64,000 bases of DNA from Siphonodentalium dalli. Lineage: Eukaryota > Mollusca > Scaphopoda > Gadilida > Siphonodentaliidae. This document shows positions 10,501 through 57,716 of the stretch, piece after piece (position 1 is the stretch's first letter; the number at the start of each line of letters is the position of its first letter). The translations under genes were made by a program, and so were the position numbers. Below the pieces are notes generated by a model, which saw nothing but the letters and a program-made list of their open reading frames with translations, was not told the DNA's origin and ran no database searches. Location: assembly GCA_032622095.1 (NCBI GenBank), contig CP136065.1, forward strand, positions 246,943,474 through 247,007,473. Direction: 5' to 3'.

Positions 10501-13222
10501 AGATACCTTATTATTGTGAGCCTCCAGGACGTCCCATACATTCCTTGATAGATACCTTATTGTTGTGAGCCTCCTGGACGTCCCATACACTCCTTGATAG
10601 ATACCTTATTGTTGTGAGCCTCCTGGACGTCCCATACATTCCTTGATAGATACCTTATTGTTGTGAGCCTCCTGGACGTCCCATACACTCCTTGATAGAT
10701 ACCTTATTGTTGTGAGCCTCCTGGACGTCCCATACATTCCTTGATAGATACTTTATTATTGTGAGCCTCCTGGACGTCCCATACATTCCTTGATAGATAC
10801 CTTATTATTGTGAGCCTCCTGGAGTCCCATACATTCCTTGATAGATACCTTATTATTGTGAGCCTCCTGGACGTCCCATACACTCCTTGATAGATACCTT
10901 ATTGTTGTGAGCCTCCTGGACGTCCCATACATTCCTTGATAGATACCTTATTGTTGTGAGCCTCCTGGAGTCCCATACATTCCTTGATAGATACCTTATT
11001 GTCGTGAGCCTCCTGGACGTCCCATACACTCCTTGATAGATACCTTATTGTTGTGAGCCTCCTTGAAGTCCCATACATTCCTTGATAGATACCTTATTGT
11101 TGTGAGCCTCCTGGACGTCCCATACATTCCTTGATAGATACCTTATTGTTGTGAGCCTCCTGTAAGTCCCATACATTCCTTGATAGATACCTTATTGTTG
11201 TGAGCCTCCTGGACGTCCCATACATTCCTTGATAGATACCTTATTGTTGTGAGCCTCCTGTAAGTCCCATACATTCCTTGATAGATACCTTATTGTTGTG
11301 AGCCTCCTGGAGTCCCATACATTCCTTGATAGATACCTTATTGTTGTGAGCCTCCTTGAAGTCCCATACATTCCTTGATAGATACCTTATTATTGTGAGC
11401 CTCCTGGACGTCCCATACATTCCTTGATAGATACCTTATTGTTGTGAGCCTCCTGGACGTCCCATACACTGCTTGATAGATACCTTATTGTTGTGAGCCT
11501 CCTGTAAGTCCCATACATTCCTTGATAGATACCTTATTGTTGTGAGCCTCCTGGAGTCCCATACATTCCTTGATAGATACCTTATTGTTGTGAGCCTCCT
11601 GGCGTCCCATACATTCCTTGATAGATACCTTATTGTTGTGAGCCTCCTGTAAGTCCCATACATTCCTTGATAGATACCTTATTGTTGTGAGCCTCCTGGA
11701 GTCCCATACATTCCTTGATAGATACCTTATTGTTGTGAGCCTCCTGTAAGTCCCATACATTCCTTGATAGATACCTTATTGTTGTGAGCCTCCTGGAGTC
11801 CCATACATTCCTTGATAGATACCTTATTGTTGTGAGCCTCCTGGACGTCCCATACATACCTTGATAGATACCTTATTATTGTGAGCCTCCTGGACGTCCC
11901 ATACACTCCTTGATAGATACCTTATTGTTGTGAGCCTCCTGTAAGTCCCATACATTCCTTGATAGATACCTTATTATTGTGAGCCTCCTGGACGTCCCAT
12001 ACACTCCTTGATAGATACCTTATTGTTGTGAGCCTCCTGGACGTCCCATACATTCCTTGATAGATACCTTATTGTTGTGAGCCTCCTGGACGTCCCATAC
12101 ACTCCTTGATAGATACCTTATTGTTGTGAGCCTCCTGTAAGTCCCATACAATCCTTGATAGATACCTTATTGTTGTGAGCCTCCTGGAGTCCCATGCATT
12201 CCTTGATAGATACCTTATTGTTGTGAGCCTCCTTGAAGTCCCATACATTCCTTGATAGATACCTTATTATTGTGAGCCTCCTGGACGTCCCATACATTCC
12301 TTGATAGATACCTTATTGTTGTGAGCCTCCTGGACGTCCCATACACTCCTTGATAGATACCTTATTGTTGTGAGCCTCCTGGACGTCCCATACATTCCTT
12401 GATAGATACCTTATTGTTGTGAGCCTCCTGGAGTCCCATACATTCCTTGATAGATACCTTATTATTGTGAGCCTCCTGTAAGTCCCATACATTCCTTGAT
12501 AGATACCTTATTGTTGTGAGCCTCCTGGACGTCCCATACATTCCTTGATAGATACCTTATTGTTGTGAGCCTCCTGGACGTCCCATACATTCCTTGATAG
12601 ATACCTTATTGTTGTGAGCCTCCTTGAAGTCCCATACATTCCTTGATAGATACCTTATTGTTGTGAGCCTCCTGGACGTCCCATACATTCCTTGATAGAT
12701 ACCTTATTGTTGTGAGCCTCCTGGACGTCCCATACATTCCTTGATAGATACCTTATTGTTGTGAGCCTCCTGGACGTCCCATACACTCCTTGATAGATAC
12801 CTTATTGTTGTGAGCCTCCTGAAGTCCCATACATTCCTTGATAGATACCTTATTATTGTGAGCCTCCTGGACGTCCCATACACTCCTTGATAGATACCTT
12901 ATTATTGTGAGCCTCCTGAAGTCCCATACATTCCTTGATAGATACCTTATTGTTGTGAGCCTCCTGGACGTCCCATACACTCCTTGATAGATACCTTATT
13001 GTTGTGAGCCTCCTGAAGTCCCATACATTCCTTGATAGATACCTTATTATTGTGAGCCTCCTGAAGTCCCATACACTCCTTGATAGATACCTTATTGTTG
13101 TGAGCCTCCTGGACGTCCCATACATTCCTTGATAGATACCTTATTGTTGTGAGCCTCCTGGACGTCCTATACATTCCTTGATAGATACCTTATTGTTGTG
13201 AGCCTCCTGGAAGTCCCATACA
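7590..13222. repeat. 49-bp minisatellite array, about 115 units
   Basis: The unit is tccttgatagataccttatt + gttgtgagcctcctggacgt + cccatacat. Variants (gacgtccc, gaagtccc, gagtccc, gtaagtccc; cattcc or cactcc) are interspersed, and some variant blocks recur, which points to repeated segmental duplication. Minus-strand ORFs through it exist only because the unit lacks stops in some registers. Sequence from 13222 to 13791 is intron with nothing else recognised. Confidence 0.97.
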
Positions 13223-13946: not shown

Positions 13947-14221
13947 GTGAGTGCTTCATCAAAATAGATAGATACAGTAGATACTTTATTGGAAAAATGC
14001 TTCATGTTCAAGATGATTTGGCAGTACACAAATTTGTGATATAATGGTGCTAATATCCAGAAATGATACATAGTAATGCTCAGTCATAAAGCATTTGCCT
14101 GGAATGGACATTGCCACGGTCTCGAATATCTTCCTGCCCATCACAACTACCATCTAGATATAACTATGACCTTTGTAGCAAGCACATGACATTACTCCAA
14201 TGCATACATGTAGTACTAATT

Positions 14222-14780
14222 ATTAGCTCAACTTGAAGTCAAGTTTGAGCTTTTGTGGGTTGGTGTACATCTGTGTGTCCATCTGTCCACAATTTCCTTT
14301 GGCACACCATACAGGCAACTTCCCTTATCCGATCATCACCTTCAGATGGAAGCCATTGATTTTTTCCAAAATTCATAAAAAAACATGGCCCCCTTCAGTC
14401 ATCTTGGATTTAAAATTTGTTTCCACCGGCACACCCTGCAGCCTGCATTTATTGGAGAAATCTTTTGAAATTTTACAGGCATATTTTAGGATCACCTCTA
14501 GAGGGGAGCTATCAAATTTGAAATATTTTCGATAAAAAAAAAAACGTGGCCGTCAGCAATCATCTTGGATGACTAAAATCTTTGGCACACCATACAGGCC
14601 ACATTCCTCATCTGATCATCACCAAACTTCATATGGATCTTCAGCCATCTTTGTTTCAAATTTGAACCCGTTGGCATGCCCTGCCACCAGAATTTATCAG
14701 AGAAATGTTTTGAAAAATGACAGGCATGTTTATGATCCCCTCTTATGCATGTTAGTGGGTTGCTGTTATTCATAAGATAT
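14222..14780. repeat. Dispersed intronic repeat with internal duplication
   Basis: It starts with an inverted repeat (agctcaacttgaagt / caagtttgagct). It contains a doubled segment 'ctttggcacaccatacaggc' (about 14298 and 14580) with following 'ccgatcatcacc' / 'ctgatcatcacc'. No coding potential is seen. Class unknown. Confidence 0.5.
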
Positions 14781-15648
14781 GTGAATTTGTCCTCACTGGC
14801 TAAATGAATTAATCAGTGCACTATAATAACCACGGTTGGCCGATTTAAATAAATGATTTTTTTTCCCCAAAAATTCATTAATTTAAATAAAAAAAATTGA
14901 AATAATGGTAAAAAGTCAAGAAATGCAATAGGTTTTTGTAAACTATAACATGAGTATGATTAAACAATATACAAAATTGGACAAGAGATATGAAATTGTA
15001 CAGTCATTGTCAACCCTATTGAAACTACATGAATGCTGCATGGTACGTTGATTACTGCTCCAGCAACGGCCTGGTCAGCTTGACATTGTTAGCATTATTT
15101 GTAACTTCACTTAAATTCAGCACATCTCATTACACTGTTTAATTTCATTTCCTTTTCTGATTGCCATACATGTAAATACTAACCGAGTAACTCTACCATA
15201 TACTCTGCCATCTAAACTACTCTAGTTGTCTAATGTCTATACTCGGTATACCGGTATGGTGTGATTATGTCCTCAAATCACCTAAGAGTAAACGCGATTG
15301 ATAATAATAAATTTTCAGCTAAAATTTACTGTTTAAGCATAGGTCTACCTATCCATATATCACAACATTTGAACTTACATGGACATAATTAAAGTACATG
15401 GTCGCTATATCTGTACTGCCATGATATTTGAGTTTGATAGGTATACAATAAATAATAATATAATAATAGAATTATGATTAGTCCAGCATTGGATATAATA
15501 GACTACACGTTTTAGAACCTTCATTTATCAAAGACATTGCACAATTACATGTTTTCATAACTGTTAGAAAAAAAATTTAAAAAATCGATTTAAATTAAAA
15601 ATAATCTTATTTAAATCAAATAAATGGATTTTTTTTATATATTTAAAA

Positions 15649-16275
15649 CAAGAGGTGTGCACTCGAGTGCTAGCATACCCCCACTGTGGCAAATTCAACC
15701 CGCATTATCCGTGAACTCAACCAAAAAGATTTTTAACTTTAAAGAAAAATTCGGACTAATAATATCAATATGGTGTCACAAGAAGCTTGTACAGAAAAAA
15801 TTATTCAAATCGGTTCATATTTGTTAAAGTTATTAAGTCAGACAGAATTTTCTAAGTCAAAATAAGTCGAAAATGAGGTGTAATATTACGAAAAACAGTC
15901 TGAGCCAATCCCTAGCCGCATCATGTAGAGAGGGTATTGTGAGAAGCATGTATACCAAAAATTATTGAAATCGGTTCATATTTGTTAAAGTTATTAAGTC
16001 GGACAGAATTTTCTAAGTCAAAATAAGTCGAAAAAGAGGCGTAACTTTAAAATAAAAAGTCGGACCGAACCGCAATTAGCATCATGCGGAGAGACCGTCC
16101 TAAGGAGATTGCATACAAAAAATTATTGAAATCGGTTCATAGTTGTTCGAGTTATGAGGTCGGACGGACGGACCGACGGACGGACGGACGGACGAACGGA
16201 AGGAGAAAACGTGACGGACGGACGGACGCAGTCAATCCAGTATACCCCCCATTTTCTTCGAAAGTGGGGGTATAA
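15649..16275. mobile_element. Interspersed repeat present only in the left arm
   Basis: It begins acaagaggtgtgcactcgag. It has three degenerate internal units (aaattattgaaatcggttca), a ggacggacgg tract, and ends cttcgaaagtgggggtata. The right arm reads straight through (atttaaaaataaaatc in the left sense), which gives the element's limits almost to the base. No long target duplication is evident. Confidence 0.75.
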
Positions 16276-16512
16276 ATAAAATCACCAACCCTGCTTATAA
16301 CAGAGTAAAGGTTGATTCTCTTTTGTATATAAACTGCAGTGTAATATGTTGAGAAATTTCAATTACAGTTGGAAATAACGATTTTGAAAATTGTACAGAA
16401 AATGAGCTTCAAGCATTATTGAATTTCTCTTCAAACTTTCTTGTTATTCCTTCAGAACATAAATCTTTAAAGCACCATTAACCCTCCTCTTATGTTTTTT
16501 TATTAATTTCAG

Positions 16513-16653
16513 AAATAAAGTCTGTGTGTACGATCATAAGGGGAAGGAATTGTTAAATGTGGGTGCGTTGTCACAGAACAACAGTGAACCTCCTATTACA
16601 ACACCCTATATACTGGGAAACCGGATGTTCGGCATACATACAGGCAAAACAAG
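16513..16653 (+). CDS. gene L exon 4 (phase 2-2), left copy
   Basis: The acceptor is ttaatttcag|AAATAAAG and the donor AAAACAAG|gtataa; 141 bp. It encodes NKVCVYDHKGKELLNVG... and ends NRMFGIHTGKTR. Alternating hydrophobic residues and a D-H-K-G turn look like propeller blades. The right-arm partner is 62790-62930, of identical length. Confidence 0.85.
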
Positions 16654-16894
16654 GTATAATTAAGATTTACTCCATGCTGTCCATGTGTCAGATTTGAAGG
16701 GTTGAGAAATGTTATCTGTGATGATGTCACATGTGACAAGACTCCCAACGCTACACCCTGTGTCCTGGGTGAAATGATGTCGGTGCGTTATGATGGATCA
16801 ATATTTAACTGTTTACACACATACGTTGCATTGTACAGAGCTTCGTAGCTGATTAGTTTGATACTGGAATATATAGAGGATCTTCAACGAGTCC

Positions 16895-17605
16895 CCAGTT
16901 TATAGCGGAATTTACGAAACAAGTCCAGACCTAATTTACTTGACAAGTTTTGTAAATTCCACTATAAATTGGGGACGATGTGTAGATTCTATTTATTACA
17001 TGATCCAAAACCTTGATAAACATTCATAAATCAACAAATGGGATGTGAAACATACATCGGCTTCTTTTAGGCCTGCGATGACATTTCACATAACTATGCC
17101 TTATTTGCCCGCGTGAAGAAATAGTCCCAGACAAATAAAGACTCTTTGACATATTTAATGGCATATATTTAATGAAATAACTTTTCAAATTCTTTATTCA
17201 TTGGAGTTTGTCGGAAAATATTCGAAGCCATATTATTTTGAGCTGTAGCATACGGAATGTAAACAGACAACAAACCGGAAGTCAAAGGTCACCTGGCACT
17301 ATTTCCTGTTATGCTACAAATGTTTTCCAACAAACTCTAATGAATAAAGAATTTGAAAAGTTATTTCATTAAATATACGCCATTAAATATGTCAAAGAGT
17401 CTTTATTTGTCTGGGACTATTTCTTCACACGGGCAAATAATGCATAGTTATGTGAAATGACATCGCAGGCCTAAAAGAAGTCGATGTTAGTTTCGCGTCC
17501 CATTTATTGATTAAGAATGTTTATCAAGGTTTTGGATCATGTAATAAATAGAATCTACCCCTCGTCCCCAATTTATAGCGGAATTTACAAAACTTGTCAT
17601 GCAAT
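16895..17605. mobile_element. Large foldback element, arms about 300 bp
   Basis: Outer ends are inverted copies (ggggacgatgtgtagattct against agaatctacccctcgtcccc), and the match continues inward through 'ccaaaaccttgataaacatt', 'aggcctgcgatgacatttca' and 'tttgaaaagttatttcatta' on opposite strands. The centre is near 17250. Smaller inverted pieces of the end (gtttatagcggaatttac) flank it. The right-arm counterpart (about 62050-62545) has lost much of one arm. Confidence 0.8.
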
Positions 17606-17722
17606 AAATACAATATTGGAAACCACTCTTTTCTGTAATAAATTAATTCTACGTTTATGCCAAACCTGTCAAATCCCACCATCTCACATTGTGCTCAAAA
17701 TAGAATCTCTCCAATGGGTGTG

Positions 17723-18127
17723 TTAACCCTTTCAGTGCCAGGTCCGATTTTTGTATCAACCCATATACCCTGCGCCAATGCATTCTCTTATATATGCGAG
17801 TCGACCATAGGTCGCCTCGCATATATAAGAGAATGCATTGGCCTAACAATTTTTCATCATTTGTTATTATTTTTTACAATTTTGATAAATTTTTCTTGTA
17901 TTCTTTAACAGACTTATTTTGTAGGTTTAGTGCCAGGGAATCTTACGTTTTTCATGGGCATCAAAATTATTACTATGAATACTTGGTGATAGTTTTGAGT
18001 TATAACATCCCGCTAAGGTTTTATCCAGTTTGTTTTTAAATTCGCTATAGCATACCCAAAAAAGGGCCGATTTTACAGACCGTAAATTAGGGCCGATGAG
18101 ATCGGCCCCTGGCACTGAAAGGGTTAA
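17723..18127. mobile_element. TTAA-flanked MITE, CCCTTTCAGTGCCAGG termini
   Basis: TTAA at 17723-17726 and 18124-18127 encloses a 397-bp element with ends CCCTTTCAGTGCCAGG and CCTGGCACTGAAAGGG. A TTAA target and a CCC terminus are what piggyBac-type elements show. Inside is a near-perfect hairpin (ccaatgcattctcttatata ... tatataagagaatgcattgg) shared with the CCCTTTACCC family. In the right arm one TTAA near 61572 is empty, and only a half copy survives at about 61950-62038. Confidence 0.82.
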
Positions 18128-18139
18128 CACAACGGATGC

Positions 18140-18520
18140 CAAGCCTGAGAATTAGTGTGCCTATCATTTGCAAAATGAGGTCCCCAGAGGGTGAATTTAG
18201 TGACGCTATCCTGCATAGCGGGCTAGCTTAACTAAATTCACCCTCTGGGGACCTCATTCTGCTTAGGTCTCATCTTCTCTGGATTGTTTCTTTATTATAA
18301 AATTTCTATAGAAACTTCTTCACATAGATTCTATTTCTTTTTTAGTTTAGTTTCTCTATATCCCCAAATTGGCAGACGACACATTGCATAATCAAGGTTC
18401 ACAATGGATGTACATCACAATATTCACCATTTGGGAACTTCTATCTGAGTCTATTTCTCCCATAGCAGATGAGGCCATGCAGAATGAGGTCCCCAGAGGG
18501 TGAATTTGGTGAATTAGAAA
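18140..18520. mobile_element. hairpin MITE complex (CAAGCCTGAG family)
   Basis: One hairpin (cagagggtgaatttagtgac / gaccccaga stem) at 18175-18263 is followed by a spacer that recurs in this family (ctatatccccaaattggcag, cacaatattcaccatttggg). Half of a second hairpin at 18480-18513 ends abruptly. The right-arm partner lies at 61165-61555. Confidence 0.65.
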
Positions 18521-18703
18521 ATTCATGACAAAATGAGAATTTTTTTACAAAGTAGAATTGTTTTCTTGTTATTCTATTTGCACCCAAGATTTATTTTTGG
18601 AGAATAGTATTAATTTTATCTGCATTTTGTTCTGCCAGAATTGGAACACAAAAATGTTAATGCTAAGTAAGCACATAACATAACTTTAATTCTGAATTTG
18701 CAG

Positions 18704-18877
18704 AGTTTTGGTTTCTAATGGTGAGAGTGGAGGTGATGTTGATGAGATCGGTGAGTTTCCAAAGATAGAGGGGATAAATATCGTCGGAAATCTAGTCTTA
18801 CTTCACACCAAAGATGGCATCAGTTTTCTGGATCCAGATACAATGCTGCCAGGTTTAATACTGTTGGACGAGAGATG
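18704..18877 (+). CDS. gene L exon 5 (phase 2-2), left copy
   Basis: The acceptor is gaatttgcag|AGTTTTGG and the donor GAGATG|gtgagt; 174 bp. It encodes RVLVSNGESGGDVDEIG... KDGISFLDPDTMLPGLILL, again strand-turn-strand in character. Against the right copy (60827-61000) the length is the same and changes are conservative (NGESGG against NGDSAP), as expected if both arms stayed under coding constraint. Confidence 0.87.
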
Positions 18878-19024
18878 GTGAGTTAACTCTAAAAGATTGA
18901 GTCACCCACTTTAGTACTGTTGGGACTAGAGATGGTGAGTTAACCAGAAAAGATCGAGTTAACCACTTTAATACTGTCATATTAGAAATTAGCATGTCCA
19001 TTTAGTACTCTTAAATGAGAAGTA

Positions 19025-19510
19025 ATCAGTTAACCTTGCCAATGTTGATACTTGTATATTACTCAATAATGATCGAACCTGCCTATTTAGCTTTCCATTC
19101 CTGTCACTCTATCGCGATTTAATCTATTTATTCAATTCCCAAGTCCAGTAAATAATGATTGAACCTGTTGATTTAACTTTCTATAATGATTGAACCTGTC
19201 TGTTCAATTCACTATACCTGTCAATCTTTTTATTGAATCTGCCAATGTGGAGATACATTCCTGTCAATCTATGATTGAACTTGTCTGTTTAATTCATGAT
19301 AGCTGTCAATAATGATTCAACATGCCAATTTTGCTTTCCTTTCCTCTCAATCTGTAATTATTGAACCTGTCTATTCAATACACTACCTGTCAATAATGAT
19401 TTAACCTGTCTGTTTAATTCATTATAGCAGTCAATAATGATTGAAATTACTTTAGCTTTCTGTTCCTGTCAATCTATTATTGAACCTGTCAGTTTAATTC
19501 AATAATGATT
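19025..19510. repeat. Degenerate tandem repeat in an intron
   Basis: Imperfect units of about 40-60 bp built on 'tcaataatgattgaacctgt' and 'ctgtttaattcattatagct' recur about ten times. The same array is present, inverted, at 60195-60650. Confidence 0.7.
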
Positions 19511-19530
19511 TATTTATCCCGTTGTTTTAG

Positions 19531-19686
19531 CTCACCGTACCTGGCAATCAATGATGACTCCTCCTGTCTGCAGGGAAACTATGAGAAAGTTAAAGTGTTG
19601 GAGGAGAAGAAAGTAAAGAATGTGATTCAGGCGGTGATCAGCTTTGACAACCTTGTCTGTGTCGTCCACTTCCAGGACGAAACAAG
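19531..19686 (+). CDS. gene L exon 6 (phase 2-2), left copy
   Basis: The acceptor is gttgttttag|CTCACC and the donor GAAACAAG|gtaggt; 156 bp. It encodes SPYLAINDDSSCLQGNYEK..., then VIQAVISFDNLVCVVHFQDE. The end of the exon again reads as a propeller strand pair. The right partner is 60019-60174, of equal length. Confidence 0.87.
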
Positions 19687-19734
19687 GTAGGTCAAATCTT
19701 ATACATATTTGCGATTGTCTGTTTGCAATAGAAA

Positions 19735-20043
19735 TTAACCCTTTACCCAACAGAACGGCCCTGTGCCAATGCATTCTCTTATATATGCGAGTCGACCATA
19801 GGTCGCCTCACATATATAAGAGAATGCATTGGCTTAACACATATTAAAAATGATAAAATTGTCAAAGAATGTAGAAAAATATGCATTGGCACAGGGCATA
19901 ACTGTAACCATCACAATGTGGTCAATGAACCGGTTCCAATGATATCCATATTTGTATGGTGTTAGTGAGACAGACCGAAGATATTTTAGGCTGTTGAAGC
20001 TTTATTTGGGCGTTTTTGGCCGTTTTGTTGGGTAAAGGGTTAA
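19735..20043. mobile_element. TTAA-flanked MITE, CCCTTTACCCAACAGAACGG termini, left copy
   Basis: TTAA at 19735 and 20040 bounds a 301-bp element with 20-odd bp terminal inverted repeats. It carries one full internal hairpin (gccaatgcattctcttatat and its complement) and the remains of a second ('tatgcattggcacagggc'). The right-arm copy at 59507-59970 keeps both hairpins. Confidence 0.85.
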
Positions 20044-20179
20044 ATGAGGACCTTGTAGGGGGTTCCAAAGAGATCTAACACAGGTAACTTTTGTCGATAA
20101 AGATAATGGTGCAAAATAAAATATTCTAAAGTGGTGCTGTCGGAGTCAGAGATAAAAAACGGGAGAGGCACCAACAAAT

Positions 20180-20655
20180 TTGATGAAATTTGTTTGTTGC
20201 CCATTCCCACCAAACTGATATTGAATCATCGCAATGTTCTACTAGATAATCTTGTGGTATAGATTCCAGCTAACTTATATAGAATCCGACATCACCCATG
20301 ATATAGGGTCTCTAATTTTGTGGTGAAAATATATCGTTTGGTGCCGTCCATGTCATTGGGGGTCGGGAAGGGCAAAATATTGATAAAAACTTATTTGTCA
20401 TCGATTTCCACCTAACTTATATATAATCCGACATCACCCATGATATAGGGTCTCTAATTTTGTGATGAAAATATATTGTTTGGTGCCGTCCATGTCAATG
20501 GGGGTAGGGAAGGGCAAAATATTGATAAAAACTTATTTGTCACCGATTTCCACCTAACTTATATATAATCCGACATCACCCATGATATATGGTCTCTAAT
20601 TGTGTGATGTAAATATATCGTTTGGTGCCGTCCATGTCAGGGATGGGGTTTGAGA
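20180..20655. repeat. ~142-bp tandem repeat, about 3.5 units
   Basis: Units carry 'aatccgacatcacccatgat', 'gggtctctaattttgtgatg' and 'gtttggtgccgtccatgtca' at about 20286, 20428 and 20570. Present inverted at about 58920-59330. Confidence 0.85.
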
Positions 20656-20689
20656 AGGGGCAAAAAATTTATAAAACATTTATGGAGGC

Positions 20690-20945
20690 CCAGACTCAGT
20701 ATATGTTCATTGCTTCAAATGTGCTGCTTCAGTGAGCGTGAACAACTTCTCATTTCTTATCAACATGGCCATGTATCGTTAATAATGACACACCAATATC
20801 AAGCATGGTATGAAAATCCGTCCCGATTTTTGCCATGACGAGGTTCAAACTCGCGTCAACCTCGTCTAGCCCAGACTGCGATGATCTTATCCATGACCTA
20901 ACCACCTTGGCTATGGGGACATCCTTGAAAAGGAAGCCCTTTCAA
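20690..20945 (-). mobile_element. tRNA-derived SINE, left copy 1
   Basis: On the minus strand, tagccaaggtggttaggtca resembles a pol III A box and gagtttgaacctc a B box. A body shared with the next SINE follows (cgatacatggccat, 'gcttcaaatgtgctg'). It is one of three tRNA-like heads in this stretch; the others have B boxes at about 21350 (ggttcgaactcg) and 21595 (agttcgaagcc). The head is not a functional tRNA gene because the cloverleaf cannot close. Confidence 0.55.
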
Positions 20946-21024
20946 ACAACACAATGCACTTCCTCTGAAATTGTATCAGTGACCATATGATTACAGGTAC
21001 TGGCATATATATATCATATCTATG

Positions 21025-21385
21025 TAGGCATGGACTCATGAGTGTTTTTATTGCTTCATTAAGCATGAACCAAGCCTTGAAATAGGGTGTCTGTCATTTG
21101 CAGAATGAGGTCCCCAAAGGGTGAATTTGGTGATGCTAGTCCGCTATGCGGGGTAGCATCACTAAATTCACCCTCTGGGGACCCCATTCTGCAAATGACA
21201 GACACCCTATTTCAAGGCTTGGCATGAACAAATTCTCATATCTTTTCGAAATGGCCATGTATCGATCAGAATGTCACACCGAGATGTCCCCCAACTCAGA
21301 TCAAGCTTGAAAATCAGTCCAACAATTTGCCCATGTCAGGGTTCGAACTCGCACCAACCAGTGAGGTTGATAATTGATAAATTAA
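21025..21385 (-). mobile_element. tRNA-derived SINE, left copy 2, split by a MITE
   Basis: Its body parallels copy 1 (ggccatgtatcgatcagaat; 'attgcttcattaagcatgaa'), with a B-box-like gttcgaaccct on the minus strand. The MITE at 21071-21221 sits inside it, flanked by gcatgaac on both sides. Confidence 0.5.
21071..21221. mobile_element. hAT-like hairpin MITE, single-hairpin form
   Basis: It is a 151-bp near-perfect palindrome with ends CAAGCCTTGAAATAGGGTGT and its complement. An exact 8-bp duplication, gcatgaac, flanks it at 21063-21070 and 21222-21229. Eight-base duplications are the hAT signature. At the identical site in the right arm (58248-58501) the element is 254 bp with two internal hairpins. 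Confidence 0.9.
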
Positions 21386-21840
21386 TAAAATTAATTTATT
21401 GCCGATTTCCGTAAACTTATAAATAGACATGTCATTTATATAAGAAACCTAATTGTACATGTTAAATGTACTGGAATTAGGACACCAATCGGGTCAGTAA
21501 TAGTGATCAGAGCATCAAAATTGATCAACTATTTATTCCGACGATTTTCCTCCAGACTTTTTCCTACAGATTTATAGAGGAACGGACTCAGTTCGAAGCC
21601 ACACTGACCTTGTTTAGCACTGACTGAAATGATTTTATCCATGACCTAACCACCTCGGCTATGGGAACATCCTTAAAAAGGAAGCTCTTTCACTGAGAGT
21701 TGGGAAGCATATCAGTCTGAACATGGGTTAGAATATTAACACAAAATCCACCATTATATTGGACTCTTTAACGCAGGCTACACTGGGCAACCCTGATTGT
21801 TTCAGTAATGTAAGTCATGTGACCAATGGCTGTTTTTGTT

Positions 21841-24243
21841 TGAATGCAGTGTATTTGAGGCTCAGGTATATGATTGGTTGTTTTTATTTGATTGCAGTGT
21901 ATTTGAAGCTCAGGTATATGATTGGTTGTTTTGTGTGATTGCAGAGTATTTGAGGCTCAGGTATATGATTGGTTGTTTTTGTTAAAATTGCAGTGTATTT
22001 GAAGCTCAGGTATATGATTGGTTGTTTTGTGTGATTGCAGAGTATTTGAGGCTCAGGTATATGATTGTTTGTTTTTGAATAATTGCAGTGTATTTGAGGC
22101 TCAGGTATATGATTGGTTGTTTTTGTTTGATTGCAGTGTATGTGAGGCTGAGGTATACGATTGGTTGTTTTTGTTTGATTGCAGTGTATTTGAGGCTCAG
22201 GTATACGATTGGTTGTTTTTGTTTGATTGCAGTGTATTTGAAGCTCAGGTGTATGATTGGTTGTTTTTGAATAATTGCAGTGTATTTGAGGCTCAGGTAT
22301 ATGATTGATTGTTTTTGTTTGATTGCAGTGTATTTGAGGCTGAGGTATACGATTGGTTGTTTTGTTTGATTGCAGTGTATTTGAGGCTGAGGTATACGAT
22401 TGGTTGTTTTTGTTTGATTGCAGTGTATTTGAAGCTCAGGTATATGATTGGTTGTTTTGTGTGATTGCAGAGTATTTGAGGCTCAGGTATATGATTGTTT
22501 GTTTTTGAATAATTGCAGTGTATTTGAAGCTCAGGTATATGATTGGTTGTTTTTGTTTGATTGCAGTGTATTTGAAGCTCAGGTATATGATTGGTTGTTT
22601 TGTGTGATTGCAGAGTATTTGAGGCTCAGGTATATGATTGGTTGTTTTTGTTTGATTGCAGTGTATTTGAAGCTCGGGTATATGATTGGTTGTTTTGTGT
22701 GATTGCAGTGTATTTGAGGCTCAGGTATATGATTGGTTGTTTTTGTTTGATTGCAGTGTATTTGAGGCTCAGGTATACGATTGGTTGTTTTTGTTTGATT
22801 GCAGTGTATTTGAAGCTCAGGTATATGATTGGTTGTTTTGTTCGATTGCAGTGTATTTGAAGCTCAGGTATATGATTGGTTGTTTTTGTTTGATTGCAGT
22901 GTACTTGAAGCTCCGGTATATGATTGGTTGTTTTTGTTTGATTGCAGTGTATTTGAAGCTCAGGTATATGATTGGTTGTTTTTGTTTGATTGCAGTGTAT
23001 TTGAAGCTCAGGTATATGATTGGTTGTTTTTGTTTGATTGCAGTATTTGAAGCTCAGGTATATGATTGGTTGTTTTTGTTTGATTGCAGTGTATTTGAAG
23101 CTCAGGTATATGATTGGTTGTTTTGTGTGATTGCAGAGTATTTGAGGCTCAGGTATATGATTGTTTGTTTTTGTTTGATTGCAGTGTATTTGAAGCTCAG
23201 GTATATGATTGGTTGTTTTGTGTGATTGCAGTGTATTCGAGGCTCAGGTATTTGATTGGTTGTTTTTGTTTGATTGCAGTGTATTTGAGGCTCAGGTATA
23301 TGATTGTTTGTTTTTGTTTGATTGCAGTGTATTTGAAGCTCGGGTATATGATTGGTTGTTTTGTTTGATTGCAGTGTATTTGCAGCTCAGGTATATGATT
23401 GGTTGTTTTGTGTGATTGCAGTGTATTTGAGGCTCAGGTATATGATTGTTTGTTTTTGAATAATTGCAGTGTATTTGAGGCTCAGTTATATGATTGGTTG
23501 TTTTTGTTTGATTGCAGTGTATTTGATGCTGAGGTATACAATTGGTTGTTTTTGTTTGATTGCAGTGTATTTGAAGCTCAGGTATATGATTGGTTGTTTT
23601 GTGTGATTGCAGAGTATTTGAGGCTCAGGTATATGATTGTTTGTTTTTGAATAATCGCAGTGTATTTGAGGCTCAGGTATATGATTGGTTGTTTTTGTTT
23701 GATTGCAGTGTATTTGAGGCTGAGGTATACGATTGGTTGTTTTTGTTTGATTGCAGTGTATTTGAGGCTCAGGTATATGATTGGTTGTTTTTTTTTGATT
23801 GCAGTGTATTTGAGGCTGATGTATACGATTGGTTGTTTTTGTTTGATTGCAGTGTATTTGAAGCTCAGGTATATGATTGGTTGTTTTGTGTGATTGCAGA
23901 GTATTTGAGGCTCAGGTATATGATTGTTTGTTTTTGTTTGATTGCAGTGTATTTGAAGCTCAGGTATATGATTGTTTGTTTTTGTTTGATTGCAGTGTAT
24001 TTGAGGCTGAGGTATACGATTGGTTGTTTTTGTTTGATTGCAGTGTATTTGAAGCTCAGGTATATGATTGGTTGTTTTGTGTGATTGCAGAGTATTTGAG
24101 GCTCAGGTATATGATTGTTTGTTTTTGAATAATTGCAGTGTATTTGAGGCTCAGGTTGATTGGTTGTTTTTGTTTGATTGCAGTGTATTTGAGGCTGAGG
24201 TATACGATTGTTTGTTTTTGTTTGATTGCAGTGTATTTGAGGT
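21841..24243 (+). repeat. 48-bp minisatellite made of a splice acceptor plus exon start, about 50 units
   Basis: The unit is tgtatttgaggctcag + gtatatgattggttgttttt + gtttgattgcag. Every unit holds a T-rich tract, TTGCAG and the first 14 or so bases of exon 7 of gene L (25360), then CAG|GTATAT, which is donor-like. Variant units with one T fewer (gttttgtgtgattgcag, 47 bp) are scattered through it. The 48-bp period keeps frames open, giving repeated VFEAQVYDWLFLFDCS in translation. That is a consequence of the period and is not evidence for a gene. Confidence 0.95.
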
Positions 24244-25330
24244 AGTGATGCGGACCCGAACGCTTTGGACCGGTCCGCGGTCCAGCGGTGGACCGCGGTC
24301 CGGTCCGGACCGGGTGTCACTGGACCGGACCGGACCGCTTTTTGCCGCCGGTCCGGTACTCTCCGGTCCGGTCCACTATTTTACTTCAGTTATAATAAAC
24401 TATCGTGAATATTATTGCGTATTTGCCGTCATATCAATTAGCAACGATGTATTGACGCATTCAAGTGGTTAATATCTATTAAACATTTGATGCCACAAAA
24501 ACAATGTATAGATGTACTTTGTACATGTCACTTTCCTTAAAATGTATTAGTGTAACACTGGCCAACACTATGTAGCACCCTATCAATGCGACAAACATGC
24601 AACTGAATGAGTATGGAACTATTTGTCATAAACAGTGTAACATGGCATCTATACTAATCAATTTGGATGGATACGAATCGAGTATTCTATTGTTTTTCAC
24701 AGTTATAATTATCGAAGAAACATGCAAACCACATTACATAGTACATACACAAGACAGTCACATTATAATCCAATAGTAGTTGTACTTAGGTATATAACTG
24801 TAAATTGTCAGGACTATATACAATCAGCCATCACAATCTCCAAGACTCCAATATTAATGTAGTAGTCATAATAGTACACATTTGTATAACTGTCATCAGT
24901 ATAGTTATTTAGTTTAAATTTCAATTTAATGAAAATAAGTATGATACGAATCATGCATACGATCAGTTGAGTGCCAGGTTATAACACATTCTGGCCCTAG
25001 CTATATATCTATCCAATACATTTAATTAGTGCATGTTCGCGCATTACTAGAAATACTATTATCGTGCATCGTTCCCAGTATATCCCACCAGAGACAGACA
25101 ATGATGCATACAATCGGCAAACAATGTAAGTTTTAACATATATGGACTCATTGCAATGCACTGAACCCAGTAACCTTATAGTTTGTACTATACTGAGTAA
25201 AAACTTTGAGAAAACAGAGAATTCATTAACACATAGCCTATTATAGGTGAACCGGACCGTTTTGGACCGGTCCAGGCATGTGTACCGGACCGGAATAGCC
25301 TGGACCGGACCGGACTGGACCGCCTTGGTA
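24243..25330. mobile_element. ~1.09-kb insertion with ggaccggaccgg subterminal repeats, left arm only
   Basis: It interrupts the 48-bp array one unit before the true exon. Both ends carry clustered ggaccgg/ccggtcc motifs (24260-24380 and 25240-25320); the inside is AT-rich without ORFs. Ends tagtgatgcggacc and ggaccgccttggta are weakly inverted. Short subterminal repeats near both ends resemble the hAT element at 33369, but no target duplication is visible. The right arm lacks it. Confidence 0.65.
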
Positions 25331-25359
25331 TATGATTGGTTGTTTTTGTTTTATTGCAG

Positions 25360-25439
25360 TGTATTTGAAGCTCCTGTTACTGTCAAATGGTGTGCCGTCG
25401 TTCCGGGTAAACCAGCCGAGGCTCTGGCTATAGAAGCAG
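25360..25439 (+). CDS. gene L exon 7 (phase 2-1), left copy
   Basis: The acceptor is tgttttattgcag|TGTATTTG and the donor AGAAGCAG|gtatgt; 80 bp. It encodes SVFEAPVTVKWCAVVPGKPA and EALAIEAG. It is identical in length to 56799-56878. Its first 14 bases and its acceptor are the founder of the upstream 48-bp array, so this exon lies behind about 50 decoy acceptors in one arm and about 17 in the other. Confidence 0.85.
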
Positions 25440-25651
25440 GTATGTAACTAAATTCATCTAACTAGAAACAATGAAATTGTTATGACAATCAGAAGGGACA
25501 GTGCGCGCAATCATGACCAAATAGGAAACAATGTTTGGTTCTCAGTTAATTTAATTTTCTGGAGTGATGAGCGAGGCACATTTTTATTTCATTTTGTACC
25601 CCATATTTAGCATGAGGGAGGCAGTTTTTTTTTCTTTCTTTTTTAGACTAG

Positions 25652-25775
25652 ACTACAATGGGAATAAGGTACCAAATAAACTGCAAAATTCTGACCTCCC
25701 AGTTAATATGGAAATCATCATATTAGGAAGTTCAGGCGAAAATCAGAAACTTCTGTGCAAGGAGAAATTTCCGTG
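25652..25775 (+). CDS. gene L exon 8 (phase 1-2), left copy
   Basis: The acceptor is ttttttagactag|ACTACAAT; the nearer ttttttag would put a stop in frame. The donor is TTCCGTG|gtaatt; 124 bp. It encodes DYNGNKVPNKLQNSDLPVNM and then EIIILGSSGENQKLLCKEKF. The right copy is 127 bp, with a +2 and a +1 difference that alter about 13 internal residues yet restore the frame. Its donor phase does not fit the next exon recognised here. Confidence 0.75.
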
Positions 25776-25820
25776 GTAATTGATAATTGTGCATTCAGAG
25801 TCAATTGTGAAATAAGTGTA

Positions 25821-27120
25821 CAAGCCTGCAAATAGTGTGTCTGTCATTTGCAGAATGAGGTCCTCAGGGTTAATTTAGTGGTGCTATCATTCACAGCGGG
25901 CTAGCATCACCAAATTCACCCTCTGGGGACCTCATTCTGCTTAGGCCTCATCTTCTGGGAAGTATCTATAGTCTCAAATTAACATTGTTTTAGTTACTTT
26001 TTCCCTTCTGGGAAGGGGGCACCCTGGAACTGAGACTATACCTAAAGATACGTTCCAACAGCTTGACCTGTCGTGGAGATTCCCATATTGGTGCACATCA
26101 ATGGCGGTGGTGGGGAGGTGGAGGCTAACAACTTTGATTTGCTTCCGAGATAATATCAACTGACGAAGTAGTAATATACTTTGAATGAAATTTGCAGAAT
26201 GCTTAACGTGCTTGCATCTTCCACAAAGTCGAGAGAGTAAGTGACGCTATGGTCGATATAACTAGTCTCGGACTTTCAACCTTACTAATTCCTAGCATTC
26301 TGATTGGCTGATATTAGAGAATTGGATACTATGAATAATTTTCATTGGAAGAAATGACGGGAGACAAAGACTTGAGAAAGCCCGGGAATTTAGCTTGACG
26401 TCGGCAGTTAATATTTCTTTCACTCCGATTGGATTAAATATAGTTTCTATTTAACCCTTAGATATTGCCTTCGGAATATACATACCACGGTCTAAAATAG
26501 ATCCGTCGCTCGATATTAAATTGCTTCTTTAGACTAGCAACAATTAATCTTTGACTTGCGACAATTCAGCTTGCTATTGAAATCGCAGTTCACTCGATAT
26601 TTATTAAACCATAACTTATTATGACGCAAAGAATTAAGCCAATCGGACATGCTGGAGGGGGTTCTCAAACTACGAGAAATAACTAGTAGTTTCTTTTCAA
26701 AAGATAAAAAGCATAATCGAGGTGACTAAATAATGGCTGAACATCACCAACTTCAACTGGGGAAATTCAATCTGATCCTAGGTCTCCCATAGCAGTTGAG
26801 GCCTAAGCAGAATGAGGTCCCCAGAGGACTGTGTTGAATAGCATCACTAAATTCACCCTCTGGGGACCTCATTCTGCTTAGGCCCTCAACTGCTATGGCA
26901 GACCTAGGATAAAATTGAAGTTCCCCAGTTGAAGTTGGTGATGTTCACCCATTGGGCGCCTCGATTATGGATGTTATCTTCTGCAAATTAGGGGATATAG
27001 AAACTTCCCAGATGGGAAAACGTAACTAAAAACAATGTTATTTTATGCGGGATAGCATCACTAAATTCGCCCTCTGGGGACCTCATTCTGCAAATGACAG
27101 ACACACTATTTGCAGACTTG
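25821..27120. mobile_element. 1.3-kb composite hAT-like foldback element
   Basis: Ends are CAAGCCTGCAAATAGTGTGT and its complement; flanks are taagtgta (25813) and taagtgtt (27121), seven of eight matching. Each end carries a cagaatgaggtcc hairpin or half hairpin. A further one, with its own outer palindrome (aacttcaactgggga / tccccagttgaagtt), sits at 26750-26950. The interior (26030-26740) has no ORF. The right-arm copy is 54811-56187. Confidence 0.75.
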
Positions 27121-27926
27121 TAAGTGTTTTCCATTGCATTGTAGTGAGATGGAGTAGCTCATGTTCTGCTTTGTAAGAAACAGCGACTTTGATTGGTCAG
27201 AGAGCCACGCAAATGTGGCACAATATATTCCATGTTTTCGTTTAGAGCCGTCAACATAATGGACACCAAGACCACCATTTCATCATCTCACCGTTCTGCT
27301 TTTTTCATGAAGTCATTTACATTGAACAATGTTATGGAGAGACCGATACAAGATCAAAATTGCTATGAATGACCAGGACAGTCGACAGGACATATATGTT
27401 ATTGTGCTTGATTGATGGTGACATGCTGTGACATTGATAGCTTGGAGCCTACAGTAATGCCCTAATTAATCGACTCCTTTAACCACAGGAGAATTATGGG
27501 TAACTTTTCAGGATTTAGTCGGAAATATGGCTTGTTGCCATTCATCGGAAAGCTCTCCCCGAGACTTGTTCAATAAAAGTCAAAATTCTCGTTAGTTTCA
27601 TTGTGAATATCAGATAATTTTTCTTATTTACTTAAGTCTTCGTCTGTTCGACATGCCCATTTCAATTTTGTCAAATTTCCTGAATAAAAAATTATGTTTT
27701 GTTTGCAGTTGTAACTATGCTATTTTTAGATTACTCCGGTCACCAAAAAATTCATTTTTGCCCAGGGTATTTTACCCATTGTAGCCGAGCGTAATGAAAG
27801 GAATCACCATCAATCAACCACAATAAATTATAATGTCACACTCATGCATGAATTTAAAATGCTGGGTGTGAGAGAGGGTCTGTGGCCATTCCGAATTACG
27901 CAATCAGTCTTTAATTTATCTTGCAG

Positions 27927-28189
27927 CGGGACTAATTGTTTCTGCCAATGTGAAAGAAATGGACAAGAATTATCGGGAGAATGTGTACTACTTTAAGAAC
28001 AGAGGGACATTAGCGGGCGTGTTACCGATGGTCGGGCCGGGTCCCCGATCATTCTGTGTGAAGCACCTCATCGAAAACAAAGAGGTTAACATTAAGAACA
28101 AAGATTTCGGATTAGCGGGACAGTATTTATTCATGAATGACGGACACGGATGCATCATGGGAGTTTTACTCCATGCTGATTGGTGTTAA
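27927..28189 (+). CDS. gene L terminal exon (exon 9), left copy
   Basis: The acceptor is taatttatcttgcag|CGGGAC. The frame that stays open gives GLIVSANVKEMDKNYRENVY and so on to MGVLLHADWC and a TAA stop. The right copy has the same length (263 bp) and near-identical protein (I to N and Q to L seen). The family is unknown. Entry into this frame needs a preceding intron of phase 1, whereas exon 8 ends in phase 2, so a small exon is missing from the model or one boundary is wrong. Confidence 0.8.
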
Positions 28190-28337
28190 TGCCTCAGATC
28201 ATCACTGACAGCTGGACCTGGATTATGATCATCCTTTGTGAAATTCTTTAATGAAAATGGAGAGGGTATAACTAAGATACTGGTGTATCAATGGTTGGAG
28301 CAGGTCATTATAATCCTTTGTGAAATAAATTGATGAA

Positions 28338-28776
28338 CAAGCCTGAGTTTAAGGTTTTTTTGCAGAATGACATCCTCAAAGGATGTATTTAGTGACACTA
28401 TCCCGCATAGCGGGCTAGCTTCACCCTCTGGGGACCTCATTTTGCATGGCCTCATCTGCTATGGGAGACAGACTCATTGATTGAAGTTCCCAAATGGTGA
28501 ATATTGTGAAATACACCCATTGGGAACCTCGATTATGCATTGTTGTCTGCCAATTTGGGGATATAGAAAAACTAAAAAAGAAATAGAATCTATGTGAAGA
28601 CGTTTCTATAGAAATTTTATAATATAGAAACTTTCGAGAGAAGATGACGCCTAAGCAGAATGAGGTCCCCCAGATGGTGAATTTGGTGATGCTAGCCCGC
28701 TATGCGGGATAGCGTCACTAAATTCACCCTCTGTGGACCGCAATCTGCAAATGACAGGCACACTAAACTCAGGCTG
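28338..28776. mobile_element. hairpin MITE complex (CAAGCCTGAG ends), left
   Basis: It starts caagcctgagtttaagg and ends cactaaactcaggctg. Two cagaatgaggtcc-type hairpins are separated by the family spacer (ttggggatatagaaaaact). Only the first hairpin is present in the right arm (52590-52686). Confidence 0.65.
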
Positions 28777-28825
28777 GCATGGAATAGATTAAAAAAATAT
28801 ATATATTTCTTCAGTTGGATGTCTT

Positions 28826-29606
28826 TATTTAACCCTTTCTTTACTAATACTACCTATATACGAGCGCCTGCGGCGCATAAGATACTATGGAAGGCAGGAT
28901 GGGATGGTGGGTACTACCTATATACGATGGTGGCGGGATGGGGTGGTGGGTGGGTACTACCTATATACGAGTGCCTGCGGCGCATACGATACTATGGGTG
29001 GCGGGATTGGGTGGTGGGTGGGTACTACCTATATACGAGTGCCTGCAGCGCATAAGATACTATGGGTGGCGGGATGGGGTGGTGGGTGGGTACTACCTAT
29101 ATACGAGCACCTGCGGTGCATAAGATACTATGGGTGGCGGGATGGGGTGGTGGGTGGGTACTACCTATATACGAGTGCCTGCGGCGCATAAGATACTATG
29201 GGTGGCGGGATGGGGTGGTGGGTGGGTACTACCTATATACGAGCACCTGCGGTGCATAAGATACTATGGGTGGCGGGATGGGGTGGTGGATGGGTACTAC
29301 CTACATACGAGCGCCTGCGGCGCATAAGATACTATGGGTGGTGGGATGGGGTGGTGGGTGGGTACTACCTATATACGAGTGCCTGCGGCACAAAAGATAC
29401 TATGGGTGGCAGGATGGGGTGGTGGGTGGGTACTACCTATATACGAGCACCTGCGGCGCATAAGATACTATGGGTGGTGGGTGGGTACTACCTATATACG
29501 AGTGCCTGCGGCACATAAGATACTATGGGTGGCAGGATGGGGTGGTGGGAAATGTATTATAATAAGTTCATTAACTACTCGTCAATAAGTATTTAGTATA
29601 GAAATG
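28826..29606. mobile_element. TIR element of the CCCTTTCT-TACT family enclosing a 68-bp array
   Basis: Left end ttaaccctttctttactaat; right end gtatttagtatagaaatggttaa. These match the ends of the element at 6640. The inside is almost entirely the 68-bp array. Absent from the right arm. Confidence 0.65.
28850..29550. repeat. 68-bp GT-rich minisatellite, about 10 units
   Basis: The unit is tactacctatatacgagtgc + ctgcggcgcataagatacta + tgggtggcgggatggggtgg + tgggtggg. The plus strand is strongly G-rich at the unit end (ggcgggatggggtggtgggtggg), which could form G-quadruplexes. The repeated ORFs here are a by-product. Confidence 0.93.
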
Positions 29607-30270
29607 GTTAAAATATTCTCTTTCCAATAATAGAGATGTGGACTGGAATACCCTGGTTATAATTTAGCACTTATTAGACATTTAATATGTATAGAATAGT
29701 ATATCAATCCACACTCCATTGCAATGTATTTTAATACATTTAATACAGTTTTAATAGATTGTAATTGAATGTGGATTGGAATACTGCTATTTATGAAACT
29801 GATGCCTGATCAGTGTTCATGTATTAATAATGATTGAGAGATTGTGATATTATTGCATGTTGAGGATTTTACATTGTATTACTTGTGATTGAGACATTGT
29901 GATATTTTATTGCTTCTTGAGGATTTCTATAGTGCTTATATTTTTATTGACATTAAAAAGTAAATCATGAAATAATAAACCAGCTATGTGCATTTAATGT
30001 AAACCTTTTAAAAATATGTCATATCCCCTTCTCCCAAAAGGCCTCAACAATAAAAACATGCTTGCTTTTCATCCATTTTTAAAAGACATTTTGTGCATTT
30101 TTGTTTTAGTAAATCAGCATAATAAGTGATCAACAAGGCACTATGCCAAGTGGAAAGCTATGTGAGGCAAGCAGGTGCTATTTTTATTTTAGAATTCCAT
30201 ACATATTGAATGCAAATTCAAAAACACTAAAACAAAACTTGTTAATTTGATAATAAAGATAATTTCCAGA
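29607..30270. other. AT-rich intergenic stretch
   Basis: No exon, array or palindrome is supported. A loose repetition (attgtgatattttattgc) is seen near 29830-29920. The part 29960-30100 matches 52450-52585 inverted. Confidence 0.5.
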
Positions 30271-30274
30271 GAAG

Positions 30275-30372
30275 ATGAGGCCTAGTAGAATGAGGTCCCC
30301 AGAGGGTGAATTTAGTGATGCAAGGGTTGCTTCACTAAATTCACCCTCAAATGACCTCATTTTGCATGAGTC
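30275..30372. mobile_element. Degenerate hairpin MITE fragment
   Basis: gaatgaggtccccagagggt, gaatttagtgatgc and the inverted return to cctcattttgcat, with a shortened loop (aagggttg). It is absent from the equivalent right-arm position near 47855. Confidence 0.7.
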
Positions 30373-31152
30373 CAGCACCATATTTTGAGGCCTGAAGTCT
30401 ACCCATGGTTACAATGATCCCCTAAACATTAGGATACATCATACAGCACGTTATGGACACTCATTCTGTTTGAACAATAGATGAGTTAAAGTCATTTTAA
30501 ACACTAGCATTTCGACTAACATGGAATAAACTTGCTCAAGACAGGTATTTCAATAAATTTTGTATCAAAATTGCTAGAACACATCACCATTCTTTCATAT
30601 AAATTAAATAAAGTGACTCTCATTTTCGAAATCATTCTCATTTGTTGATTGGTGATTTGGTTGGGACGATTGAACGACTGTTTACTATTTTGTGCAGTTC
30701 AGACGTTGTGTTTTACAAAAGGGCACAGCTGATGTCGAATATCTTGTCAATAATAGATTAATAGTTTATTCTTCAAATGTCTATAGTGGCAGAGTCATAA
30801 ATTATCAGTTTGAAAAAAGCACTTATACGTCTTTAAAGTGATGTAAACTATGGAGTGGTATGGTCGATTTGCTTTAGATTTTTGGCGATGTTAGTAGAAT
30901 GCTACTTTCCTCCAGTTGGCATAGCGCCTGGATACTAACTGATCAGTTTCACGCACCCAAACAAGTGCATAATATGTCTTTAAATAGATTGGAGGAGAGC
31001 ACTGTGAGAGGCCACAACATAATCGAGATAAAACTGAGGCAAGACTTAGGTTTTATAGTTTTAATGGGACTCAAGGGTCTTTGAACTGGGTGAAATAACA
31101 CAAAAGTCCATATAACAACTGCCATCAACATTTAGCATACATTTAACAATAT

Positions 31153-38900: not shown

Positions 38901-39218
38901 TTCAATGTGCTTGATGGTAGAGGAATGTTGTAGTTTTTCCAATCAAATGATTTCGATGTTGATTGACCTTGTCGAAGTTGTCCTGGACCGCGGAGTAAAT
39001 TCATTACTTTTGCCTCACCATGAAAGTCTAGCGTATTACAAAAGGAAACAACTGACGTATCCCACTTGAAATGTCCAGTAGCAGATTGATTACCACACAA
39101 ATTTGCATATTCCACACCGTTCTTCACAACTTTATAAAAGATGTGATCCCGTGATAGGCTCCCACTTGATAACTCTCTTTGCAGATTGATAACTAGGGGG
39201 TCCAATTCCTCGAAATAT
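35991..39218 (-). pseudogene. gene M main exon, ~1075 codons with two frameshifts
   Basis: The minus-strand acceptor is tttttttttatag|ATATTTCG and the donor AAGCCTTT|gtaagt. Reading is open from 39218 to about 36740, then moves one base (LFP to QEFSPDY) and again near 36570 (TIKRL to SPCAFNYF). Each shift is one extra base or two missing. The exon length minus two bases is exactly in phase with its neighbours, so the ancestral exon was a single ORF. About residues 430-790 look like NHL-type propeller repeats (HPVGLSYIKMGLLFITEPKE; SAMAFDYKGTLIVCDAAVGQ). The distal part (FSLLTLVCEHLFSMLRSKNP) is helical. From memory it resembles a family of large uncharacterised proteins found in many copies in invertebrate genomes; function unknown. 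Two indels mean either a pseudogene or consensus errors. Confidence 0.8.
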
Positions 39219-46900: not shown

Positions 46901-47029
46901 GTTTATGATGGCATGGTTGTCGAATATGCCCAAGAAGCTATTCTACCCACTCATTCATACAGATAACTAGCACAAAATATTACTTTGCGCCATCAAAACC
47001 TGCGTCCAAGATGTTTTGCTTGAACCCGA

Positions 47030-51952: not shown

Positions 51953-51966
51953 TGAGAGTTCCGGAA

Positions 51967-56798: not shown

Positions 56799-56878
56799 CT
56801 GCTTCTATAGCCAGAGCCTCGGCCGGTTTACCCGGAACGACGGCACACCATTTGACAGTAACAGGAGCTTCAAATACA
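56799..56878 (-). CDS. gene L exon 7, right copy
   Basis: 80 bp with the same acceptor (ttattgcag|TGTATTTG) and donor (GAAGCAG|gtatgt) as 25360-25439 and the same protein. The 48-bp array lies directly upstream in transcript sense. Confidence 0.85.
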
Positions 56879-57716
56879 CTGCAATAAAACAAAAACAACC
56901 AATCATATACCTGCGCCTCAAATACACTGCAATCAAACAAAAACAACCAATCATATACCTGAGCTTCAAATACACTGCAATCAAACAAAAACATCCAATC
57001 ATATTACTGAGTCTCAAATACACTGCAATCAAACAAAAACAACCAATCATATACCTGCGCCTCAAATACACTGCAATCAAACAAAAACATCCAATCATAT
57101 TACTGAGTCTCAAATACACTGCAATCAAACAAAAACAACCAATCATATACCTGCGCCTCAAATACACTGCAATCAAACAAAAACATCCAATCATATTACT
57201 GAGTCTCAAATACACTGCAATCAAACAAAAACAACCAATCATATACCTGCGCCTCAAATACACTGCAATCAAACAAAAACAACCAATCATATACCTGCGC
57301 CTCAAATACACTGCAATCAAACAAAAACAACCAATCATATACCTGCGCCTCAAATACACTGCAATCAAACAAAAACATCCAATCATATTACTGAGTCTCA
57401 AATACACTGCAATCAAACAAAAACAACCAATCATATTACTGAGTCTCAAATACACTGGAATCACACAAAAACAACCAATCATATACCTGAGCTTCAAATA
57501 CACTGCAGTCAAACAAAAATAACCAATCATATATACCTGCGCCTCAAACACACTGCAATCAAACAAAAACAACCAATCAGATACCTGAGTCTCAAATACA
57601 CTGTAATCAAACAAAAACAACCAATTATATACCTGAGCCTCAAATACACTGTAACAAAAACCATTCATATTACTGAGCCTCAAATACACTGCAATCATAC
57701 AAAAACAGCCATTGGT
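56879..57716 (-). repeat. 48-bp splice-acceptor minisatellite, right copy, about 17 units
   Basis: Same unit as 21841-24243, on the minus strand, but with its own variant set: units alternate between ...cgcaggtatatg... and ...gactcagtaatatg... forms. The arrays in the two arms have therefore diverged in both copy number and sequence. Confidence 0.93.

Follow-up and report, generated by a model that had tools for sequence, protein, structure and literature searches.

A 48-bp intronic minisatellite spanning copies of a 3' splice junction at six paralogous loci

Minisatellite-like tandem duplications that take in the 3' end of an intron together with the 5' part of the following exon have been described from amphioxus, where they were termed "mirages", with the globin gene BflGb6 carrying 6 units in one haplotype and 3 in another, and with further cases in BflGb9 and Adh (PMC3087553). 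Troponin C is another amphioxus case, and PGBD5 has been likened to mirages (PMC3902484). In the globin study, RT-PCR suggests that mirages leave splicing undisturbed though many of their units carry AG and GT, the edges of the arrays are said to escape homogenisation, and both boundaries of an exon can be duplicated (PMC3087553). The minisatellite presented here is built in the same way as the mirages described in that study, with a tandem unit placed over an intron-exon boundary and comprising the 3' end of an intron and the 5' part of an exon at all six loci where it occurs.

The window, that is, the whole stretch of DNA analysed, is 64 kb long and corresponds to positions 246943474-247007473 of one contig, in an assembly of 2.2 Gb and 9 contigs. 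Searching the whole assembly with two units located the array at six loci, all on the contig that holds the window (repeat counts from this search being lower bounds). A search with the 80-bp exon downstream of the array led to those six loci as well, and the protein of the last exon likewise gave six matches in the assembly. No gene copy free of the array was found in the assembly by either exon DNA or last-exon protein. The loci are labelled A to F, with C being the array under study, D the second copy in the window, on the minus strand, and A, B, E, and F lying outside the window. Exon borders were assigned by visual inspection, with phase as a check, and the features of the two window copies are as follows.

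16513..16653, plus strand: upstream coding exon (AG/GT borders and phase; 91% protein identity to paralogue E)
18704..18877, plus strand: coding exon with a tandemly duplicated 3' boundary (borders and phase; protein identity 98% to F and 89% to E)
18854..18977, plus strand: tandem duplication, 57 bp x 2.2, over the end and donor of the preceding exon (Tandem Repeats Finder)
19531..19686, plus strand: coding exon preceding the array-bearing intron (TTTTAG/CTCACC ... ACAAG/GTAGGT, phase 2 to 2)
21827..24242, plus strand: 48-bp minisatellite, copies of the intron 3' end and exon start (50 complete units)
24243-25326, unstranded: dispersed repeat of 1,084 bp, within a unit, replacing the unit bases CTCA (genome search)
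25327..25359, plus strand: terminal part-unit of 33 bases, the T-rich tract and the acceptor into the exon (sequence, unit analysis)
25360..25439, plus strand: 80-bp exon, "exon 7" of the earlier note (AG before, GT after; the array units repeat its first 14 bases)
27927..28189, plus strand: last coding exon with stop codon (in-frame continuation from the 80-bp exon)
56799..56878, minus strand: 80-bp exon of gene copy D (exon alignment, frame)
56879..57711, minus strand: array of the inverted gene copy D, 17 complete units (56865-57711 in Tandem Repeats Finder)

The 80-bp exon, named in an earlier note on this DNA, is preceded by AG, followed by GT, and continues in frame into the next exon. 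The exon at 19531..19686 joins it in frame, with the array inside a phase-2 intron; the name "exon 7" is a label only, as further upstream exons may exist. Both the acceptor AG and the donor GT of the 80-bp exon are retained at 6/6 loci, and the reading frame passes uninterrupted from this exon to the last one in all five copies read (A, B, C, D, and F), with the stop codon of A and F lying two codons earlier than that of B, C, and D. Over the 111-113 codons of these two exons, dN/dS among the five copies ranges from 0 (B-C) to 0.27, so that in these copies the coding sequence on either side of the real junction is under constraint. Searches of Pfam and of Protein Data Bank sequences yielded no convincing relative of the gene product. 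Matches to designed pentatricopeptide proteins (best E 1.4e-14, 26 residues) contained no stretch passing on its own, and were discounted because the joined 270-residue protein including the 80-bp exon gave no match with an E value of 10 or below. Transferrin was likewise dropped as the identity of the gene, with the 14 matches of the transferrin family lying on other contigs.

The two window copies belong to a large inverted duplication (14000-31000 against 47000-64000), in which the genes are opposed and the long arms are 94-99% alike. Between them lies an open frame of 852 residues on the minus strand (36722-39280), for which no Pfam family scored above the cut-off. The 57-bp duplication of the exon boundary is also present in the second window copy (60727-60845), and has a full-length match at three loci, about one unit at two more, and none at the sixth. 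A micro-exon at the duplicated donor (18854-18977) was considered since the phases of the exons first mismatched, and was dropped because the following exon proved to start at 19531 in a fitting phase. In addition, the repeat's second copy is altered in length in C and missing in E and F.

With a reporting threshold of 50, Tandem Repeats Finder places a repeat of period 48 at 21827-24242 (50.7 copies, 90% matches, score 3934), and wrap-around alignment divides the same interval into 50 complete units, in agreement with the roughly 50 tandem 48-bp units of the earlier note. The unit is also composed as described there, with the consensus TGTATTTGAGGCTCAG/GTATATGATTGGTTGTTTTTGTTTGATTGCAG, and spans 33-34 intron bases and the first 14-15 exon bases at 6/6 loci. 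Each consensus unit thus reads as 16 nt bounded by an acceptor and a donor, with pseudo-introns of 32 nt between units. Derivation of the units from the 3' splice site of this very exon is supported by the six loci which array and exon share, and by the array ending in the real junction. Not every unit carries the motifs ascribed to it, however; TTGCAG is present in 48/50 units of array C, CAG/GTAT in only 36/50, and 16/50 units are 47 bp long. Nor is 21841-25439 one array, as had been claimed, with about 30% of that interval (24243-25326) being the dispersed element, which had been overlooked together with the inverted second gene copy and its 17-unit array. The size of the 48-bp array is not exceptional in the window, since tandem arrays of period >=10 make up 29.7% of its 64 kb and a 49-bp minisatellite of 115 copies at 7602-13222 is larger. 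Other minisatellites of the window are a 25-bp repeat of 98 copies at 1-2452 and a 37-bp repeat of 35 copies at 4973-6294.

From the six loci 215 pieces were cut, with the omission of 12 edge fragments (two per locus) leaving 203 complete units: 7 in A, 84 in B, 50 in C, 17 in D, 30 in E, and 15 in F. The unit with the real acceptor is included in this count for A, D, E, and F, whilst the terminal part-unit of B and C is not. The flanks of B and C are 98-99.8% identical and those of C and D ~97-99%, with the best pieces after the exon reaching 99.8% for B-C, 97-98% for C-D, 98% for E-F, and 84% for C-E. Downstream of the exon, B, C, and D share only 77-85% identity with E and F, and the flank of A matches none of the others. 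Despite these close flanks, B and C differ by 84 to 50 units and C and D by 50 to 17, with only 1 of the 17 units of D found verbatim in C. Within array B, part of the sequence recurs 26 units further along, including nine identical units in a run. These arrays undergo fast turnover in multi-unit blocks. Divergence from the consensus shows no trend with distance from the exon at five loci, and in A, with its 7 units, rho is -0.76 (P 0.046).

Across the 203 units the bare splice dinucleotides persist. The acceptor AG is present in 200/203 under a strict count and in 201 on inspection, one miss in C being an effect of alignment. The donor GT stands at its exact place in 178/203; of the 25 remaining, 18 read CAGTAAT and 2 CAGTTAT, with GT one base earlier, and 2 more contain a gap and still have GT after CAG. 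GT is thus found at the donor place or one base before it in 200/203 units, which argues against regarding the donor as lost. The longer motifs are kept less well, with TTGCAG intact in 175/203 units and CAGGTAT in 146/203. According to the earlier note, arrays in relatives that drift without keeping TTGCAG and GTATAT would speak against a function, and such drift is largely what is seen in E (TTGCAG 14/30, CAGGTAT 18/30) and partly in D (13/17 and 11/17), with TTGCAG also in 4/7 units of A, whereas the acceptor motif has held in B (83/84) and C (48/50).

The 90 distinct units were connected in minimum spanning trees (50 trees with random tie-breaking), and the substitution steps of each column group were compared with those of random columns. 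The trees hold ~118 steps, a mean of 2.45 per column. The acceptor AG columns lie below this mean (0.5 steps per column, P 0.08) and the donor GT columns above it (4.18, P 0.12 for a value that high), with the exon-derived columns 1-14 at 2.23 (P 0.32). Columns 19-27, a possible branch point region, are slower than average (1.44, P 0.037), however nine overlapping groups of columns were tested and none stands after correction. Column 24, situated 25 bases before the exon start, is A in 203/203 units and is a possible branch point, with columns 20 and 26 equally constant. There is no firm evidence for selection on the units, and at most a hint of it for the acceptor half. Coding use of the units is disfavoured by in-frame stops in 30/203 (read per unit with inserted bases omitted) and by lengths not divisible by three in 59/203 (57 if insertions are ignored). 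Steps by codon position (35.6, 31.5, and 50.8) show no clear coding pattern. The second full codon of the exon, which lies within the repeated part (window 25360-25374), is TTT, TAT, or TGT depending on the gene copy, and nearly all array units read TTT at that position; the array may preserve an older, ancestral version of the exon start.

The edge of the array next to the exon differs from its body. The acceptor into the exon is TTTTATTGCAG in B, C, D, and E and TTTCTTGCAG in A, with the array form TTTGATTGCAG retained in F, and T at column 41 is found in only 3/199 interior units. Counted over positions -5 to -20, purines number 3 in the last unit of five loci and 4 in that of F, compared with interior means of 4.4 to 5.3. 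The terminal acceptor thereby departs from the array consensus at 5/6 loci, toward fewer purines. Either the array edge evolves apart from the body, as in amphioxus mirages, or selection keeps the terminal acceptor strong; the form shared by four loci may represent one inherited change, which is compatible with both.

In B and C alone among the six loci, the last units are further separated from the exon by the 1,084-bp element, which places the nearest array acceptor of C more than 1.1 kb from the 80-bp exon. A genome search with the element gave 1,317 first-look candidates, and among the 40 of these that were scored, copies of full or almost full length show 91-96% identity to it, besides the element itself and the copy at paralogue B, which is 99% identical. 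The ends of the element are rich in GGACC/GGTCC.

These observations are best explained, with a probability of about 0.8, by an intronic minisatellite which arose by tandem duplication of the splice junction, as in mirages, and which is tolerated as only the last acceptor defines the exon. A slip or unequal exchange would have duplicated a 48-bp stretch over the exon's 3' splice junction, presumably before the six gene copies separated, since the array is present in all six. The array would then have grown, shrunk, and been homogenised as other minisatellites are; comparison of the paralogues demonstrates the turnover itself, with unequal exchange and segment duplication as its probable mechanisms. 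The acceptor and donor look-alikes of the units would be inherited from the copied junction rather than selected. Exon definition would pick the last acceptor, and the array copies would most likely be ignored in splicing because only the last acceptor has a proper downstream donor, at 80 nt. The units themselves would define no exon because their 16-nt spans sit between pseudo-introns of 32 nt, a length below the minimum known for animal introns. Three observations count against this explanation. AG and GT persist in or next to their places in nearly all units (each 200/203), columns 19-27 are slow, albeit as one of nine overlapping groups, and the less purine-rich terminal acceptor of 5/6 loci could have been selected for an advantage over the copies.

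The earlier note had proposed that the units force use of the distal site, support recursive splicing, or yield many minor isoforms, and the column tests, in which no constraint is significant, lend these ideas no support, so far as sequence can speak to function. Were the array a selected set of decoy acceptors, slowing or adjusting how the exon is spliced in, each unit should keep its acceptor half (branch point, T-rich tract, AG) while the exact donor drifts, as is suggested by the contrast between AG (200/203) or the A of column 24 (203/203) and the exact-place GT (178/203), and by the 0.5 against 4.18 steps per column of acceptor and donor. This contrast is overstated, however, as 22 of the 25 off-place units keep GT at its place or one base before, and constraint on the acceptor falls short of significance (P 0.08), with columns 20 and 26 as constant as column 24. 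Moreover, the number of units ranges from 7 to 84 although all five copies compared retain a constrained coding frame, and the units of B and C are now set apart from the exon by a 1.08-kb element, rendering selected decoys unlikely. A related and distinctly unlikely proposal is that the array could act as a tunable brake, with dozens of complete 3' splice sites binding early splicing factors without forming exons, copy number setting the speed of intron removal in each of the six gene copies, and the real acceptor strengthened in response; it draws on the candidate branch-point A in 203/203 units and on AG in at least 200/203. Use of the array acceptors as alternative 3' splice sites, with each 48-bp unit adding 16 codons, is very unlikely. 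Read in the exon's frame, the consensus unit has no stop, and in D the next upstream acceptor would give a 128-bp exon with the frame open for about two units, but the in-frame stops and unit lengths given above count against such use, the steps by codon position lack a clear coding pattern, and an exon starting at the nearest array acceptor of B or C would take in the 1,084-bp element.

Least probable of all is recursive splicing, or a series of 16-nt micro-exons, through the array. In each consensus unit 16 nt do lie between an acceptor and a donor, and GT is all but universal at the donor position or beside it, but the 32-nt pseudo-introns are below the lengths known for animal introns and the donor columns evolve faster than average, though not significantly. 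By eye, the consensus bases preceding CAG/GT are TGTATTTGAGGCT, comprising six purines and an AG with no pyrimidine tract, and the unit is unlike a recursive splice site because this stretch before AG/GT is not a polypyrimidine tract. The inverted pair formed by the window copies, with long arms 94-99% alike, could also point to an assembly artefact of collapsed or falsely duplicated haplotypes. This is highly improbable given six separate loci with differing copy numbers and unit variants, the 77-85% identity of post-exon flanks between B-C-D and E-F, and the unmatched flank of A. The duplicated junction with a single effective acceptor remains our preferred reading, and under it the six sister genes, each with one exon behind 7 to 84 acceptor copies, provide a natural test of the reliance of splicing on exon definition.

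Amphioxus genomes are smaller than the 2.2 Gb assembly of this host, and if the host is not a lancelet, mirage-type boundary arrays would extend beyond the group for which they were named. Tandem duplication of AGGT-containing exon sequence, the Rogers model of intron gain, likewise supplies splice-site look-alikes. The potato RdRp gene (PMC4974935) is one such case of intron gain, whereas the present array lies within an existing phase-2 intron and no new intron position is apparent. Human paralogues in segmental duplications resemble the present loci in that minisatellite copy number varies among recent paralogues, sometimes at an exon-intron boundary, however the internal tandem repeats reported there have a mean of 30 bp x ~4 with half in coding sequence (PMC2812944), while the repeat described here is nearly all intronic. 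A literature search found no array of such size described, which is weak evidence, as most subscription papers lay outside the search.

The closest likeness is to the amphioxus mirages. Many units carry AG and GT in both systems (here AG in 200/203 and exact GT in 178/203), both are unstable in length (here between paralogues, with 7 to 84 complete units), and in both the edge stands apart from the body, as evident here from TTTTATTGCAG at 4/6 loci and from column 41 T in 3/199 interior units. The 57-bp duplication at the donor (18854-18977) fits the remark on duplication of both boundaries in amphioxus. Splicing was followed by RT-PCR there, and the junction was assessed here through its open frame and dN/dS. 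In contrast to BflGb6, with 3 and 6 units, there are up to 84 units here and six paralogous genes. The array is of a kind already known from amphioxus mirages, and what is notable is its copy number and the six parallel arrays.
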